Source of the DNA: Sedimentisphaerales bacterium
GTDB lineage: Bacteria > Planctomycetota > Phycisphaerae > Sedimentisphaerales > SM23-30
DNA length: 64,000 nucleotides
NCBI GenBank assembly: GCA_028281535.1
Contig: JANQJS010000002.1
Location: 124,001-188,000 of the forward strand
Direction: 5' to 3'
The notes beneath the pieces were generated by a model, which was not told the DNA's origin, searched no databases, and worked only from the letters and a program-made list of their open reading frames with translations. Shown piece after piece: positions 54,101 through 64,000 of the stretch. The number at the start of each line of letters is the position of its first letter. The stretch's first letter is position 1. The translations under genes and the position numbers were made by a program.

Positions 54101-54486
54101 TATGCTTCCTCCTGCAGGTTGGCATCATTGAGAAGGTTGCGAATGTTGTCGATCTCATTTTGCGAGATTTTATTTTCTTCGACCAGGTGGGTAATTAGTG
54201 GGGCGATCGAGCCACCGGTCAATTTGCTGGCGAGCGATTCGAGTTGCTCTCCGGCATAGGCCTGGCGAGAGATCGCGGCCGAGAAGAAATGAATTGACAT
54301 ACTGCGATCCCGCTGGACGAACCCTTTATCTTCCAGTCGCTGCAAGAGTCGCTGGACGGTACCATGCTGCGCTTTGGAGTTATCATTATAGATTTCTTCA
54401 CGGATCTGGCGAGCGGTGAGTCTTTCCTTTTGCCAGAGTAAATCCATAATTGCCAGTTCTGCGTTTGCCAGTGGGGTTCGTGTCAT
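54100..54486 (-). CDS. BlaI/MecI-family repressor
   Basis: A 128-residue repressor with winged helix (LANAELAIMDLLWQKERLTARQIREEI...HGTVQRLLQRLEDKGFVQRDRS) and a C-terminal dimerisation helix pair, as in BlaI. BlaI proteins are cleaved by the BlaR-type peptidase encoded with them. Two matching operator boxes lie upstream of its ATG, so the operon should be autorepressed. Confidence 0.92.
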   Translation of the reverse strand: MTRTPLANAELAIMDLLWQKERLTARQIREEIYNDNSKAQHGTVQRLLQRLEDKGFVQRDRSMSIHFFSAAISRQAYAGEQLESLASKLTGGSIAPLITHLVEENKISQNEIDNIRNLLNDANLQEEA

Positions 54487-54950: not shown

Positions 54951-55023
54951 TCCCTGGTAGCTCAATTGGTAGAGCGAGCGGCTGTTAACCGCTAGGTTAC
55001 TGGTTCGAGTCCAGTCCGGGGAG
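54951..55023 (+). tRNA. tRNA-Asn (GTT)
   Basis: A complete 73-base cloverleaf: acceptor TCCCTGG with CCGGGGA (one T-G pair), D-arm GCTCAATTGGTAGAGC, anticodon arm AGCGG-CTGTTAA-CCGCT with anticodon GTT, variable AGGTT, and T-arm ACTGG-TTCGAGT-CCAGT, discriminator G. No encoded CCA follows. It forms the left edge of an AT-rich stretch with integrase remnants, the usual place for integrated elements. Confidence 0.95.
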
Positions 55024-55088
55024 CTTTTTATAAGTTACGCTGAAATCGCTATTTGCGATTACCCACCAAAGTGGTGGCGCGGCTGTAA

Positions 55089-55151: not shown

Positions 55152-55328
55152 ATGAGCCACAAATCCTACCCCAAATACCGCAAACAAAAATCCTCAAATG
55201 GTAAAAATGACCGCGCATTTGTCGAAATTAATTCGAAGCGAATTTACTTAGGCGAGTATGATTCACCTGAAAGTCGCGAAAAATATTATCGCCTCATGGC
55301 AGAATATTCCACTGCAGATACAATCTGA
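55152..55328 (+). pseudogene. Integrase N-terminal fragment (copy A)
   Basis: A 58-residue frame: MSHKSYPKYRKQKSSNGKN followed by RAFVEINSKRIYLGEYDSPESREKYYRLMAEY. This closely resembles the N-terminal segment of planctomycete site-specific tyrosine recombinases (charged start, V-x-I-x-x-K-x-x-Y-L-G, then D-S-P-E-S-R-x-x-Y-x-R-L-x-A-E). It stops before any catalytic domain, so it is a truncated remnant. GGAG lies nine bases before the ATG. Its position beside tRNA-Asn supports an integration history. A decayed second copy lies 3.26 kb downstream. Confidence 0.7.
55186..55272 (+). repeat. 87-base direct repeat, copy A
   Basis: Aligned without gaps to 58447-58533 with five mismatches over 87 bases. 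It lies inside the integrase N-terminal fragment. The two copies flank the CHAT gene and the small unknown gene. Confidence 0.85.
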
Positions 55329-57791: not shown

Positions 57792-58244
57792 TTATAGTTT
57801 ATAACTTGAGAATAAACTTCGATGCCCATCAACCTCAGCAAATACCTTTTTAAATATCAATAATTTTCCTTCAGTATCTAACGATATTTTATTCTCATTT
57901 TCTAAACGAGCAATATACATATTCCATTCTTCTAAGCTAATTTTGTGTTGATTATCAAATAAGGCTTTCGCAAGTTCTAACTCAATTTCAGGAGCATTTA
58001 TTAATTCATTCCAGCTTTTAAAACCAAGTATTTTAGTTGCAAAAAAGTGTTGAACCTTCATTAAACTGGAAATAATCTTATCCTCATTAAGCTGATAATC
58101 AACAATAATCTGGTTGACATCAAAGTGCTTTGGAGAATACTCATAAAGACTCTCATTAGTTTCTTCATCAAAAACAGATTTTTGGGTTTTGAAGTCTTTG
58201 TGGAGTTTTTTGGCTTGAAGTTTGAAATAGTCGATTTTTTTCAT
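57792..58244 (-). CDS. Small conserved-looking protein of unknown function
   Basis: A 150-residue, mostly helical, charged protein beginning MKKIDYFKLQAKKLHKDFKTQ. The middle, VNQIIVDYQLNEDKIISSLMKVQHFFATKILGFKSWNELINAPEIELELAKALFDNQHK, resembles a recurrent family of small proteins in AT-rich genomes that I cannot name. The ATG at 58244 has AAGGA nine bases upstream, better than the longer frame at 58268. It is transcribed toward the CHAT gene with a 246-base gap that holds nothing I recognise. It could be a partner or regulator of the CHAT protein. Confidence 0.6.
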   Translation of the reverse strand: MKKIDYFKLQAKKLHKDFKTQKSVFDEETNESLYEYSPKHFDVNQIIVDYQLNEDKIISSLMKVQHFFATKILGFKSWNELINAPEIELELAKALFDNQHKISLEEWNMYIARLENENKISLDTEGKLLIFKKVFAEVDGHRSLFSSYKL

Positions 58245-58446
58245 AATATAAATCCTTGTTTTCCCCAAGATTATTATCTAAAAGTTTTGCGTCTGTAATC
58301 TGTTGTTAGATAATAGCCTTGGAAGGTTTATATTATCTTTGGTTGGTTGATGAAATCTTTACACAGACGAGCTGGCTTACCAACAAGCACACCTGCATCC
58401 TATACAAAGAAAATCAAATATCAAGATGAAAATCTGATTATTATAT

Positions 58447-58533
58447 AAAAATCCACTAATGGTAAAAATGACCGCGCATTTGTCGAAATTAATTCGAAGC
58501 GAATTTATTTAGGCGATTATGATTTACCTGAAA
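58447..58533 (+). repeat. 87-base direct repeat, copy B
   Basis: Partner of 55186-55272; 82 of 87 bases identical. It lies in an open stretch with no start codon. Confidence 0.85.
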
Positions 58534-59452: not shown

Positions 59453-62164
59453 ATGGAAGTTCAAAAAATAAAGATCCATCATCTTACTGATGTTCATATT
59501 GGCCCTCTACATTATAGCTATGAAAATAAATTGAACATTGTTCCAGTTGAACATTTTGTAAATTTACCTAAGTACCGTGAATTTTTGTCAGAAATGCCAT
59601 TAGATGATTTGCCTGACATTGTTGTAATTTCAGGCGATTTAACAAGCTATGCTTCTGATGATGAGTTTGATCTCGCAGTGAAATGGATAAGCGATCTTGT
59701 AGAAATTATGAAGAAAAAAAAATCTTCTTGGAGGGAGGCAGAAAGAAATTCGCCCTATATATTTATTGTTCCAGGTAATCATGATTTAGACTGGAGCGAA
59801 GATTCGTATGCTACCAAAATTAAACGATATTGTCGAAGTTCGGATATACTTTGTAATGAGAATAATGTGCTTTCGGCTTGTTATGGGGCTCATAAAAACA
59901 ACCCTGTTTATTATGACTTTAGCTCTTTAAATATTTTCTTCTATTTATTCAATAGCACGCCATTAGGGGGCACAGATGAACCCGTAATCAAAGAGGTTAT
60001 TGAAGAAATTAATGATAAAATAATTAATGCTTATCATGATACGTTGAACGCAAAAAATGAAGAGATTATTAAAGCGGTTAACAGGTTAAACAAGTATGTT
60101 AAACAAGATCCAGGCTATGTGAGTAAAGATAGTCTTAAAGAAATGGAAAATGTGTTGAGGAGTATTCCAAAAGAAAGAATAAAAATAGGTGTTATGCATC
60201 ACAACTTAACAAGTGTTCCATCTGATGATGTTGAAATATTTGACACTATTGTTAATGCTGGCATAGTTAAAGATTATTTAATAAGAAACGAATTTGATAT
60301 TGTGCTTAATGGGCACCGACATTTTTGGCATGCTGTACGAGAAATTCATTTGGCGCATCCTAAAAACAAACAAGGACTTTTAATTGTAAGTGGCGACACC
60401 TTTGGCTGTAGATCTGAAGCACCTTATAATGAAATATCTATTTCTTCACCAATAGAAGCACATCGACGGGGTAAACCATCTGCTTTGTTAACTATAAAAA
60501 AAGTTAATTATGTAACAAATCATTATACTGCTGAAAATGTTCCATCTGTCCAAGAAGCTGTAGACAAAAGTCTTTATGATGAAATATTTACAATTATGAA
60601 GAGTTTTTGCTCTGAGTATGACCATGGCTCTGCGAGCCGTGATGAACTAATATCAAAATGCAAAGATCATATTGAACGAACACATGGAATTTGGTCGGAT
60701 AGATTAGATTGGAGTGATAAAACACAATGGATTCGTGATTTTCATATTCAATTGTATAATTATGGTTATATATTTGCTACTGATATATTCAAAAGGTCTT
60801 CTCTTAGAAATGCCCGTTATTATCTTTACTTGTTGGAGCAAATAAATGAACGCCTAAAAAGAATTGTTGCAGGAGAAAATAATGACAAAACATTGTATTA
60901 TACATCTAATGTGTATGATGCGATTATTCGAACTGGTTGGAGACCTAATGGGCATATTTGGAAAGATTATAATATATCTAAAGGTGAACTAAACAAATGT
61001 GATTTACAAATTGTCAGAATTTTAGTGCGTCCCACAGATTTGCCTTCATATGAGAAAAGCATGTTAAAAGTATTAGACTTTATTCATCAAATATGTGGGA
61101 TTCCACTGTTTGTTTTAAATATAGAAACTATCGATAAAAAAGTTATTAAAGATTATGCTTGTGGTTATGATCACGATGGTGAACCACTAAAGTGTTATGA
61201 ATATGATGAAGCAAATAGTACTGTAGAGGAAGTTGACATTAGTCCTCAGGGTCGAAGAAGAGATCAGATGAAAGATGTAGGAGATGTCGTATTATCTAAT
61301 AAAAAACTAAAAACAGTTGAGCAGTTTTTGCAAGGTGACCATTATCCTGTTTTAATGGGAGAAGCTCGCGACATAAAAGATATCGCACTGAGTTATGACA
61401 ATACAAGGTTTGCTAGTAAGCGGATCATTGATATTATTTTGAAACATATAAAATCTAAGCCTAATAATATTGGTATTGATGTTGGGTGCGGAACAGGAAA
61501 CTACACAATGCCTTTTGCTGAACATTTTAGTGATTTGTATGGCGTAGATATCTGCAAAGAAATGATTGACCAGGCACGCTCAAAAAACAAAGAAATTAAT
61601 TGGGTTGTTCATGATGCTATGCTTTTGGATGAGAAGAGGGGGTGGAAAAATCGCTTTGATGCTTTGTGGTCTGTTTCAACGCTGCATTATTTATTAGGGC
61701 TTAATCAAAAGTATTTTATGGAACAAGCTTACTATATTTTAAAACCTGGCGGGGTTGCTGTGATTGAAACAACTTTTAGAGAGCAATTAAATCCCTTTTG
61801 GTTTTTTAGGTATTTTCCATCAATGCACAAAAGATATTATTATGCTTGCTTAAAAAAAGATCAATATAAGGTGTGGGCGAATGAAATAGGATTTAGTGAT
61901 TGTGAATTTGATGTAATGATTACTAAAAAAGAAGAAGAAAGTGTACTACAACTTGCTTGTCAAAATCCGAAAATACTACTGGATGATAATATTACTGATA
62001 ATTTGCCTGTTTTCAAGTTTCTAGATTGGGAAGAAATCAAATCTGGACAAGCAAGTCTGGAGAAAGATATTTTGAAGGGGAAAGGTATTGATGATGAAAT
62101 AGTTTCATCTGAAGAATGCATGAAAAAAGAAGGTAGCAATGGGTTTATCATACTTAAAAAATAA
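59453..62164 (+). CDS. Metallophosphoesterase fused to a class I SAM methyltransferase
   Basis: A 903-residue two-enzyme protein. The N-terminal calcineurin-like phosphoesterase (about 7-350) has D13-x-H15 (LTDVHIG), SGDLTS (D62), VPGNHDLDW (N109-H110), MHHN (H249/H250) and LNGHRHFWH (H288, H290): a full metal site. A middle region (about 360-620) is unrecognised. The C-terminal part (about 645-800) has methyltransferase motifs IGIDVGCGTGNYTMPFA (673-689), VHDA (719-722) and LKPGG (763-767). No signal peptide, so cytoplasmic. GGGAGG lies twelve bases before the ATG, a little far. It precedes a LivK-type gene on the same strand and in the same AT-rich stretch. Substrates unknown; the combination is unusual. 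Confidence 0.82.
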   Translation: MEVQKIKIHHLTDVHIGPLHYSYENKLNIVPVEHFVNLPKYREFLSEMPLDDLPDIVVISGDLTSYASDDEFDLAVKWISDLVEIMKKKKSSWREAERNSPYIFIVPGNHDLDWSEDSYATKIKRYCRSSDILCNENNVLSACYGAHKNNPVYYDFSSLNIFFYLFNSTPLGGTDEPVIKEVIEEINDKIINAYHDTLNAKNEEIIKAVNRLNKYVKQDPGYVSKDSLKEMENVLRSIPKERIKIGVMHHNLTSVPSDDVEIFDTIVNAGIVKDYLIRNEFDIVLNGHRHFWHAVREIHLAHPKNKQGLLIVSGDTFGCRSEAPYNEISISSPIEAHRRGKPSALLTIKKVNYVTNHYTAENVPSVQEAVDKSLYDEIFTIMKSFCSEYDHGSASRDELISKCKDHIERTHGIWSDRLDWSDKTQWIRDFHIQLYNYGYIFATDIFKRSSLRNARYYLYLLEQINERLKRIVAGENNDKTLYYTSNVYDAIIRTGWRPNGHIWKDYNISKGELNKCDLQIVRILVRPTDLPSYEKSMLKVLDFIHQICGIPLFVLNIETIDKKVIKDYACGYDHDGEPLKCYEYDEANSTVEEVDISPQGRRRDQMKDVGDVVLSNKKLKTVEQFLQGDHYPVLMGEARDIKDIALSYDNTRFASKRIIDIILKHIKSKPNNIGIDVGCGTGNYTMPFAEHFSDLYGVDICKEMIDQARSKNKEINWVVHDAMLLDEKRGWKNRFDALWSVSTLHYLLGLNQKYFMEQAYYILKPGGVAVIETTFREQLNPFWFFRYFPSMHKRYYYACLKKDQYKVWANEIGFSDCEFDVMITKKEEESVLQLACQNPKILLDDNITDNLPVFKFLDWEEIKSGQASLEKDILKGKGIDDEIVSSEECMKKEGSNGFIILKK

Positions 62165-62221
62165 ATATAACAAATTATGTATTTAAATAACTAGAATGAT
62201 GTGGGAAATATAGGAAAAAAA

Positions 62222-63361
62222 ATGAATAAAAAAATACTATTGATAGTCTTGCTGGCACTAGTTTTTATTATATCAACTTTTATTTTTCTTGATAGAAATA
62301 GTACTAAAGATCATACATTAACGATAGGATGTATTTCTATTTTTAGTGGGGAAATTGCCACTTATGGCAAGGAAACTAAGCAAGGGATCGCTCTTGCTTT
62401 GGATGAAATCAATAATAGTAATATTCTTCAGGGAAAAGAGCTGGCTGTGCAATACGAGGACAGTCAATTTGATGCAAAAATGGGTGTTCAAGCAATTAAT
62501 AAATTAATATTGGTTGATAAAGTCCCAATTATTTTGGGAGCTTTTAGTTCTAGAGTGACACTTGCAATAGCGCCAATAGCGGAAAAATATGAAACGGTAT
62601 TAATGTCTGCTAGTGCGACAGCTGATTCTATAAAAAACTCTGGAGATTACATTTTTCGAATAGTTCCTCCAAATAAGGTACAAGGAGAAGTAGCGGCATT
62701 TTTTGCTCGAGAGAATCTTAAAGCGAAAAAGGCTGCTGTGTATTATGTTAATGATGAATATGGCCAAGGTTTATCCAAGGAGTTTACAAATATATTTACA
62801 ATGAATGGTGGGAAAGTGTTATTTTCAGAAGGATTTAGTTTGGGTCAAAAAGATTTTCGTACAACATTACAAAAAATTAAAAAACTAGAAGTTGACATAT
62901 TATACTTTCCTGGGCAGGCAATAGAAATCGGGTTGATTTTAAAACAATCAAAAGAGATTGGGCTGAATACGATATTTGTTGGTGCAGATGGCTCATATTC
63001 GCCAGATTTAATAAAAATTGCTAGCGATGCTGCCTCAGGCGCATATTTTACACTGATGTCAATGGGGTTTGGTGTAAGTGATGATATGATCAAACAATTT
63101 AATGATTCTTTTAAGAAAAAATATAATGAAGAACCAACAGTATATGCAGCATATGCGTATGATGCAATGAAAATCATTGGCCAAGTTATCTCGAAAAATA
63201 ATTTTGATGCGAAGGATATCAAAAAAGGATTATATGACCTAGAAGAATATATTGGTGTTACAGGTTTAACGAAGTTTGATCAACATGGTGAAGTTGACAA
63301 AAATTATTATGTATATGAAATCAAAGATAACAAGTTTATACTTTCAAATAAGCAATTTTAA
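62222..63361 (+). CDS. Membrane-anchored LivK-type substrate-binding protein
   Basis: A 379-residue periplasmic-binding protein of the branched-chain amino acid/receptor family (ISIFSGEIATYGKETKQGIALALDEINNS, VQAINKLILVDKVPIILGAFSSRVTLAIAPIAEKY, AYAYDAMKIIGQVI). The N-terminal hydrophobic segment (about 4-23) lacks a lipobox Cys and a clear cleavage site, so it probably stays anchored. It may bind amino acids or another small ligand for the permease that follows. The ATG at 62222 has AGGA seven bases upstream; an earlier GTG frame is rejected. It follows the phosphoesterase-methyltransferase gene by 57 bases. Confidence 0.87.
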   Translation: MNKKILLIVLLALVFIISTFIFLDRNSTKDHTLTIGCISIFSGEIATYGKETKQGIALALDEINNSNILQGKELAVQYEDSQFDAKMGVQAINKLILVDKVPIILGAFSSRVTLAIAPIAEKYETVLMSASATADSIKNSGDYIFRIVPPNKVQGEVAAFFARENLKAKKAAVYYVNDEYGQGLSKEFTNIFTMNGGKVLFSEGFSLGQKDFRTTLQKIKKLEVDILYFPGQAIEIGLILKQSKEIGLNTIFVGADGSYSPDLIKIASDAASGAYFTLMSMGFGVSDDMIKQFNDSFKKKYNEEPTVYAAYAYDAMKIIGQVISKNNFDAKDIKKGLYDLEEYIGVTGLTKFDQHGEVDKNYYVYEIKDNKFILSNKQF

Positions 63362-63404
63362 ACGCCCTAAATATGCGTTTAACTTTTATTTTTAATGGAT
63401 ATAT

Positions 63405-64000
63405 ATGAGTCAGATATTTGTAAATACGTTAATATCAGCCTCGTTTTTTATCGTAATTGGTTTAGCTTTATCTTTAATTTATCGTGCGGTAAAGTTTTTT
63501 GATATGTCGTTGGCCGGTATTTTTGTGGCAGGGCCATATTGTATGCTTTTTTTTTATAATTCTTTATGTATTCCATTATTTTTTGCATTAATATTTAGTT
63601 GTTTGCTTAGTAGTATTATCTACTACGTCATTTATTTTGCAATATATAAACGGTTTGAACATAATGCCCATTCTCCACTAAGTTTACTTTTAGCCTCATT
63701 TGGTATTTATATTATATTGCAAAATGTAATTTCTATTATTTTTGGAGATCGCATTATGACAATTCGAAATATACATATACAGGAGGGGATACTCCTTGGA
63801 GGCGCAATGTTGACACCGATACAATTGATTGCGATATTATATTCAATAATTTTTGTGTTTATAGTTTTGATAATTATGCATAAGACAAAATATGGCTTAT
63901 GCTTGCGAACTATTGGCGAGAATTTTCCATTGGCTCAATCCCTTGGAGTTTCAGTGAAAAAAACAATTGTAATCACTTATCTTACGGTAGGTATTTTTGT
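63405..64000 (+). CDS. LivH-type branched-chain amino acid ABC permease (partial, runs off the window)
   Basis: An open frame from ATG at 63405 to the right edge encodes about 198 residues with at least five membrane helices. ASFFIVIGLALSLIYRAVKFFDMSLAGIFVAGPY and KTKYGLCLRTIGENFPLAQSLGVSV match LivH permeases. It lies 43 bases after the binding-protein gene, so a full ABC transporter (with LivM, LivG and LivF) may continue outside the window. No strong ribosome site is seen. Confidence 0.85.
   Translation, partial: MSQIFVNTLISASFFIVIGLALSLIYRAVKFFDMSLAGIFVAGPYCMLFFYNSLCIPLFFALIFSCLLSSIIYYVIYFAIYKRFEHNAHSPLSLLLASFGIYIILQNVISIIFGDRIMTIRNIHIQEGILLGGAMLTPIQLIAILYSIIFVFIVLIIMHKTKYGLCLRTIGENFPLAQSLGVSVKKTIVITYLTVGIF

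Follow-up and report, generated by a model that had tools for sequence, protein, structure and literature searches.

We identified, in an island bounded by tRNA-Asn in a Sedimentisphaerales bacterium, a single gene whose 903-residue product joins an N-terminal calcineurin-like phosphoesterase (MPP) to a class I SAM-methyltransferase through a middle region of about 310 residues. We propose, with a probability of about 0.45, that this fusion is an orphan conflict protein of the anti-phage or abortive-infection type, carried as cargo of an old, degenerate island, and that its methyltransferase replaces the NTPase and sensor parts of related proteins. According to this proposal, the MPP would be the effector, hydrolysing a nucleotide, a cyclic nucleotide or a nucleic-acid phosphoester; the middle region would be regulatory or sensing and, together with the methyltransferase, would take the place of the NACHT/STAND switch and sensor usual after such an MPP; the methyltransferase would act on the MPP substrate or on a small molecule related to it; and the Liv operon that follows would be a transport cargo of its own within the island. 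The defence role, the substrate, the role of the middle and the independence from Liv are the parts of this proposal that we infer. The window analysed is a stretch of 64,000 nucleotides from contig JANQJS010000002.1 (GCA_028281535.1; positions 124,001 to 188,000), and the features discussed, including those to the right of the window on the same contig, are collected in Table 1.

Table 1. Features of the tRNA-Asn island, the fusion gene and the adjoining transporter operon, in window coordinates
Feature	Position	Strand	Details
tRNA-Asn (GTT), left island boundary	54951..55024	+	ARAGORN
Tyrosine-integrase N-terminal remnant, 58 aa, just 3' of the tRNA	55152..55325	+	52% identity over ~49 residues
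BovA-like CHAT protease, Borvo anti-phage protein	55389..57560	-	PADLOC BovA E 2e-209, residues 10-722 of 723
158-aa ORF, upstream of bovA, same strand as bovA	57792..58268	-	No Pfam, NCBIfam, PADLOC or PHROG match
Further integrase remnant, in a more advanced state of decay	58447..58533	+	94% DNA identity over 87 nt to the first
Fusion gene, 903 aa	59453-62164	+	MPP ~1-330, middle ~335-645, class I SAM-methyltransferase ~650-780, C-terminal extension
livK-like HAAT-family binding protein, N-terminal membrane segment	62222 (ATG) to 63361	+	Peripla_BP_6 E 4e-54 (Pfam)
livH-like permease	63405..64000, on to 64262 outside the window	+	Same-strand continuation
livM, livG, livF	Gap-free after livH to ~66615, ~2.6 kb past the window	+	Contig beyond the window
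tRNA-Asn 3'-half copy (of 54982-55019), 38 nt, right island boundary	Equivalent of 66829-66866, beyond the window		Direct repeat

The fusion is one real gene as assembled, because position-specific GC is uniform along the whole open reading frame, the two alternative frames are dense with stops and the domain junctions contain no start preceded by a Shine-Dalgarno sequence. In addition, a GGGAGGA ribosome-binding site lies ahead of the frame, and codon periodicity is unbroken through the ~300 middle residues. The first-pass annotation had described a 903-residue protein joining a complete calcineurin-like metal site to a complete SAM-methyltransferase core, and the open reading frame, the motifs and the Pfam matches all agree with it; the intervening region it reported is also present, with a length nearer 310 residues (~335-645) than the ~250 it gave. 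It had named a sequencing error joining two genes as grounds for rejection. The presence of the fusion in one genome assembly only (67 contigs) would be in keeping with an assembly or sequencing error, but the single continuous frame and periodicity, the stops in the other frames, the lack of a junction start and the 221-kb length of the contig make this the least probable of all the readings considered here. Separate-gene homologs, also named as grounds for rejection, are found to the extent that the catalytic domains occur apart (as stand-alone methyltransferases, and as MPPs on NLR-like proteins), while the fusion itself does not resemble an error.

At the level of sequence, we show that the MPP is akin to the N-terminal effector MPPs of NACHT/STAND (NLR-type) receptors. 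Pfam Metallophos matches residues 6-290 (E 4e-10), and the MPP motifs are intact (DVH13, GDLTS61, GNHD108, HHN249, and GHRH287). In NCBIfam, the full-length fusion matches DS9_1_antiphage best (NF053862, anti-phage DS-9A; E 3e-16), at 59.5 bits against a cut-off of 420, and DS8_antiphage (NF053861) also matches (E 1e-8) at 33.1 bits against a cut-off of 790. Among the MPP relatives found in a search of 392 phylum genomes, all six with frames longer than 1,000 aa have the MPP-NACHT/STAND architecture; four of the six end in an FGE-sulfatase domain, and two match the PADLOC candidate PDC-S60 over most of their length. The MPP-NACHT-FGE-sulfatase proteins of the same phylum at loci L054-L056 and L059 are NLR-like receptors whose C-terminal part is the candidate sensor. 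In DS-8 (MPP-NACHT) and DS-9A, phage defence requires the MPP catalytic residues, and the DS-8 MPP is homologous to human SMPDL3A, a cGAMP-cleaving enzyme (PMC13092281). A comparative-genomic study also counts calcineurin-like phosphoesterases among the effector domains that vary at the N-terminus of bacterial conflict proteins (PMC8195603).

The methyltransferase part belongs to class I by its Rossmann core with a GxGxG motif (GCGTG, at residue 678); Methyltransf_25/11 matches residues 675-771 (Pfam, E 4e-17), and the pLDDT of the AlphaFold2 model is mostly above 90 over residues 671-770. It is similar to many stand-alone methyltransferases in the 98 relatives searched. Among solved structures, phosphoethanolamine N-methyltransferases (PfPMT and AtPMT2) are its best relatives both in sequence and in fold. 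The Foldseek matches of the full-length model are methyltransferases, with an rmsd of ~20 A over long alignments, so that the core match alone is meaningful, and identity to the solved enzymes stays below 20% over long alignments and reflects the common class I core only. Three specific identities do not fit this domain. In a sequence alignment, the positions of PfPMT Asp128 and His132 (the residues mutated in PDB entries, according to the entry titles) are occupied by Ser and Tyr, unlike in a phosphoethanolamine N-methyltransferase; motif IV of DNA amino-methyltransferases, (D/N/S)PP(Y/F/W), is absent, as is EExxHxxH, the metal motif of the RNA-repair enzyme Hen1.

Pfam gave no match to the middle region at a threshold as lenient as E 10, and no homolog of it turned up across the 98 relatives, 392 phylum genomes, and 397 class genomes. 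Modelled alone with AlphaFold2 it reached a pLDDT of 36, which is unusable, and the full-length model, which is confident for the methyltransferase core and for the MPP's N-terminal part but not for the middle, gave no usable fold for it either. Over the fusion as a whole, a motif scan found no P-loop or Walker A pattern, Pfam matched no NTPase, kinase or ligase domain, and PADLOC made no defence assignment beyond a generic methyltransferase match to mad2.

Neither the fusion architecture nor the middle recurred in the 98 relatives, the 392 phylum genomes, the 397 class genomes or phages, and plasmids matched the methyltransferase part alone, with neither fusion nor middle. Two hits in the class genomes, with E values of 0.03-0.05, fall in GspE-like proteins and seem to be fortuitous. 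Exact 8-residue patterns gave no match in 84,980 species genomes or 2.9 million viral contigs, and degenerate patterns gave none in viral contigs or genomes; the latter came from synthetic alignments (A2 and A3) whose rows were invented to widen the patterns and are not evidence, and a mixed alignment (A1), which set MPP C-terminal halves under the methyltransferase, was left unused. The genome searches number ~1,300 in all; the pattern scans of the large collections need near-exact short peptides and could miss distant relatives; by these patterns the fusion has no close relative in the 84,980 species genomes, which is not a claim of uniqueness. Recurrence of the domain order together with the Liv neighbours, proposed in the first-pass annotation as a check, was seen at no second locus.

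The fusion lies in an island of ~11.8 kb with low GC (31% vs 40%): GC is 28-34% for the most part between the tRNA and livM, higher in livG and livF, and ~40% outside. The layout is that of a tRNA-integrated island, with tRNA-Asn on the left and, on the right, a direct repeat of the tRNA 3' end. This repeat, just after livF, matches the tRNA-Asn 3' half at 33 of 38 positions (87%), against at most 22 in 30 shuffles, and is followed by a hairpin and T-run terminator of the kind that sits right after tRNA-Asn in several relatives. Next to the tRNA the integrase is present as remnants only, the 58-aa piece and a decayed copy; the former resembles the N-terminus of a relative's 389-aa ORF (L049), a Pfam Phage_integrase (E 8e-13), and the paired fragments of 87 nt (55186-55272 and 58447-58533) flank bovA. 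Synteny did not reveal an empty site, the right-flank gene having no ortholog in 14 relatives. The simplest account would be that an old element integrated in the 3' end of tRNA-Asn, that the tRNA was restored on one side, and that the displaced 3' half decayed without selection. Because another integrase remnant separates bovA from the fusion, two or more serial insertions at tRNA-Asn are suggested, so that bovA and the fusion may have arrived separately. By eye, a GIY-YIG-like frame start (WVYVLTN/WVYILINP) follows tRNA-Asn in several relatives (L062, L064, and L067). The genome that carries the island also has a 6,498-aa open frame (G000:C48, around 54107-54451, L041).

The CHAT protease encoded beside the tRNA is a full-length Borvo protein, with a Pfam CHAT match, its catalytic His in DCHGNHGG and its Cys in SACLT. 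It has no relatives in 245 other sampled phylum genomes, and thus no neighbourhood comparison within the phylum is possible; relatives at 23-32% occur on rhizobial and other plasmids. The 158-aa ORF is a possible candidate for a BovA partner.

On the other side of the fusion, the livK and livH genes are the start of a complete five-gene LivKHMGF operon for a HAAT-type ABC transporter. The livK-like frame is also readable from a GTG at 62201, the ATG being the more likely start; its product matches NCBIfam PRK15404 (E 2e-50) below the cut-off, and its relatives within the order are all distant (31% or less); the Liv proteins all score below the curated, substrate-specific LIV and urea cut-offs. 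The fusion stop and the likely livK start are 57 bp apart on the same strand, and GC3 is 0.24 and 0.23 in the two genes. The fusion does lie directly upstream of a membrane-anchored binding protein and a LivH-like permease, as first annotated, and the sequence to the right of the window, which was to be obtained as a check, holds the livM, livG, and livF genes that complete the operon. The suggestion that a Liv sensor/transport module feeds the enzyme gains no support: the transporter is an ordinary, complete one, the pairing was found at no second locus, and the membership of both in one acquired island accounts for their adjacency. The Liv operon is probably co-acquired cargo, independent of the fusion. 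The accompanying suggestion, a role "perhaps in immunity or signalling", gains support in its immunity part from BovA in the island and an MPP of the NACHT/STAND, DS-8/DS-9 kind.

Several points count against a conflict protein: MPP and methyltransferase are promiscuous domains, the remnant at 58447 between bovA and the fusion weakens guilt by association, no homologous locus was found that shows recurrence in defence islands, and PADLOC offers for the fusion nothing more than the generic mad2 match. The foremost alternative, less probable than the conflict protein, is a functional MPP-methyltransferase fusion outside immunity, a housekeeping or regulatory enzyme that the island picked up by chance; no homolog links the fusion to any process and the island contents are mixed, the Liv operon being an example, whereas the nearest long-frame MPPs are immune-receptor effectors and BovA lies in the same island. 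Next comes a metabolic operon, of nearly the same probability, in which Liv would bring in a compound for the fusion to dephosphorylate, or cleave as a diester, and to methylate (e.g., a phospho-amine or a lipid head group). Such an operon would suit the common strand, the short gap, the near-equal GC3 and the shared island, as well as the phosphoethanolamine N-methyltransferases among the solved structures, but that likeness is one of the class I core at less than 20% identity, with Ser and Tyr in the place of the PMT Asp and His, a HAAT transporter needs no processing enzyme to be complete, the pairing recurs at no second locus, and tight spacing is by itself weak evidence.

More doubtful still is a new class of immune or signalling enzyme, in which an SMPDL3A-like MPP and the methyltransferase would work within a single polypeptide on the same nucleotide-type signal; the middle would be a new sensing domain, and the enzyme might be coupled to a Liv-type binding protein that detects an extracellular cue. 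RNA repair with methylation, in which a phosphatase and a 2'-O-methyltransferase would act on cleaved RNA ends in a Pnkp/Hen1-like manner, is very unlikely, as the Hen1 motif is missing, no Hen1 appears among the solved-structure matches, and no kinase or ligase domain is present in the fusion or assigned in the island. In its favour, phosphatase and methyltransferase do cooperate in Pnkp-Hen1 repair-with-immunity (PMC4411300).

Judged on its sequence, the fusion is filed under none of DS-8, DS-9, PMT, Hen1 or DNA methyltransferases, since each has at least one defining feature that the fusion does not show. It shares with DS-8 a related MPP with an intact metal site, but has no NACHT P-loop NTPase and scores far below the cut-off. 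DS-9, composed of the metallophosphatase DS-9A and a HAD phosphatase, also has a related MPP, whereas the fusion, again far below the cut-off, has a methyltransferase instead, and no HAD phosphatase gene lies beside it or elsewhere in the island (its neighbours are the 158-aa ORF/bovA and the liv genes). The N-terminal MPP is like that of the phylum's MPP-NACHT/STAND-FGE-sulfatase proteins and PDC-S60, with the NTPase and C-terminal part swapped for the middle and the methyltransferase. Borvo shares the island, but BovA is a separate CHAT protease, encoded on the opposite strand and not homologous to the fusion. Pnkp-Hen1 likewise combines phosphatase and methyltransferase activities, together with a Hen1 metal motif, kinase and ligase that the fusion lacks, and the phosphoethanolamine N-methyltransferases share the SAM-binding core alone, their catalytic Asp and His positions not being conserved. 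The transporter has the full LivKHMGF set of the HAAT/LIV branched-chain amino-acid and urea ABC transporters, but falls below every curated LIV/urea cut-off.

The shared island explains why LivK and LivH adjoin the fusion, and a transport-coupled sensor is not implied. MPP effectors have only recently been shown to be necessary for phage defence in DS-8 and DS-9. If the conflict-protein reading is true, the fusion, in which such an MPP is combined with a small-molecule-type methyltransferase and no NTPase switch, would offer a tractable single-gene system for the substrates of MPPs and for the question of whether methylation has a part in bacterial nucleotide immunity.
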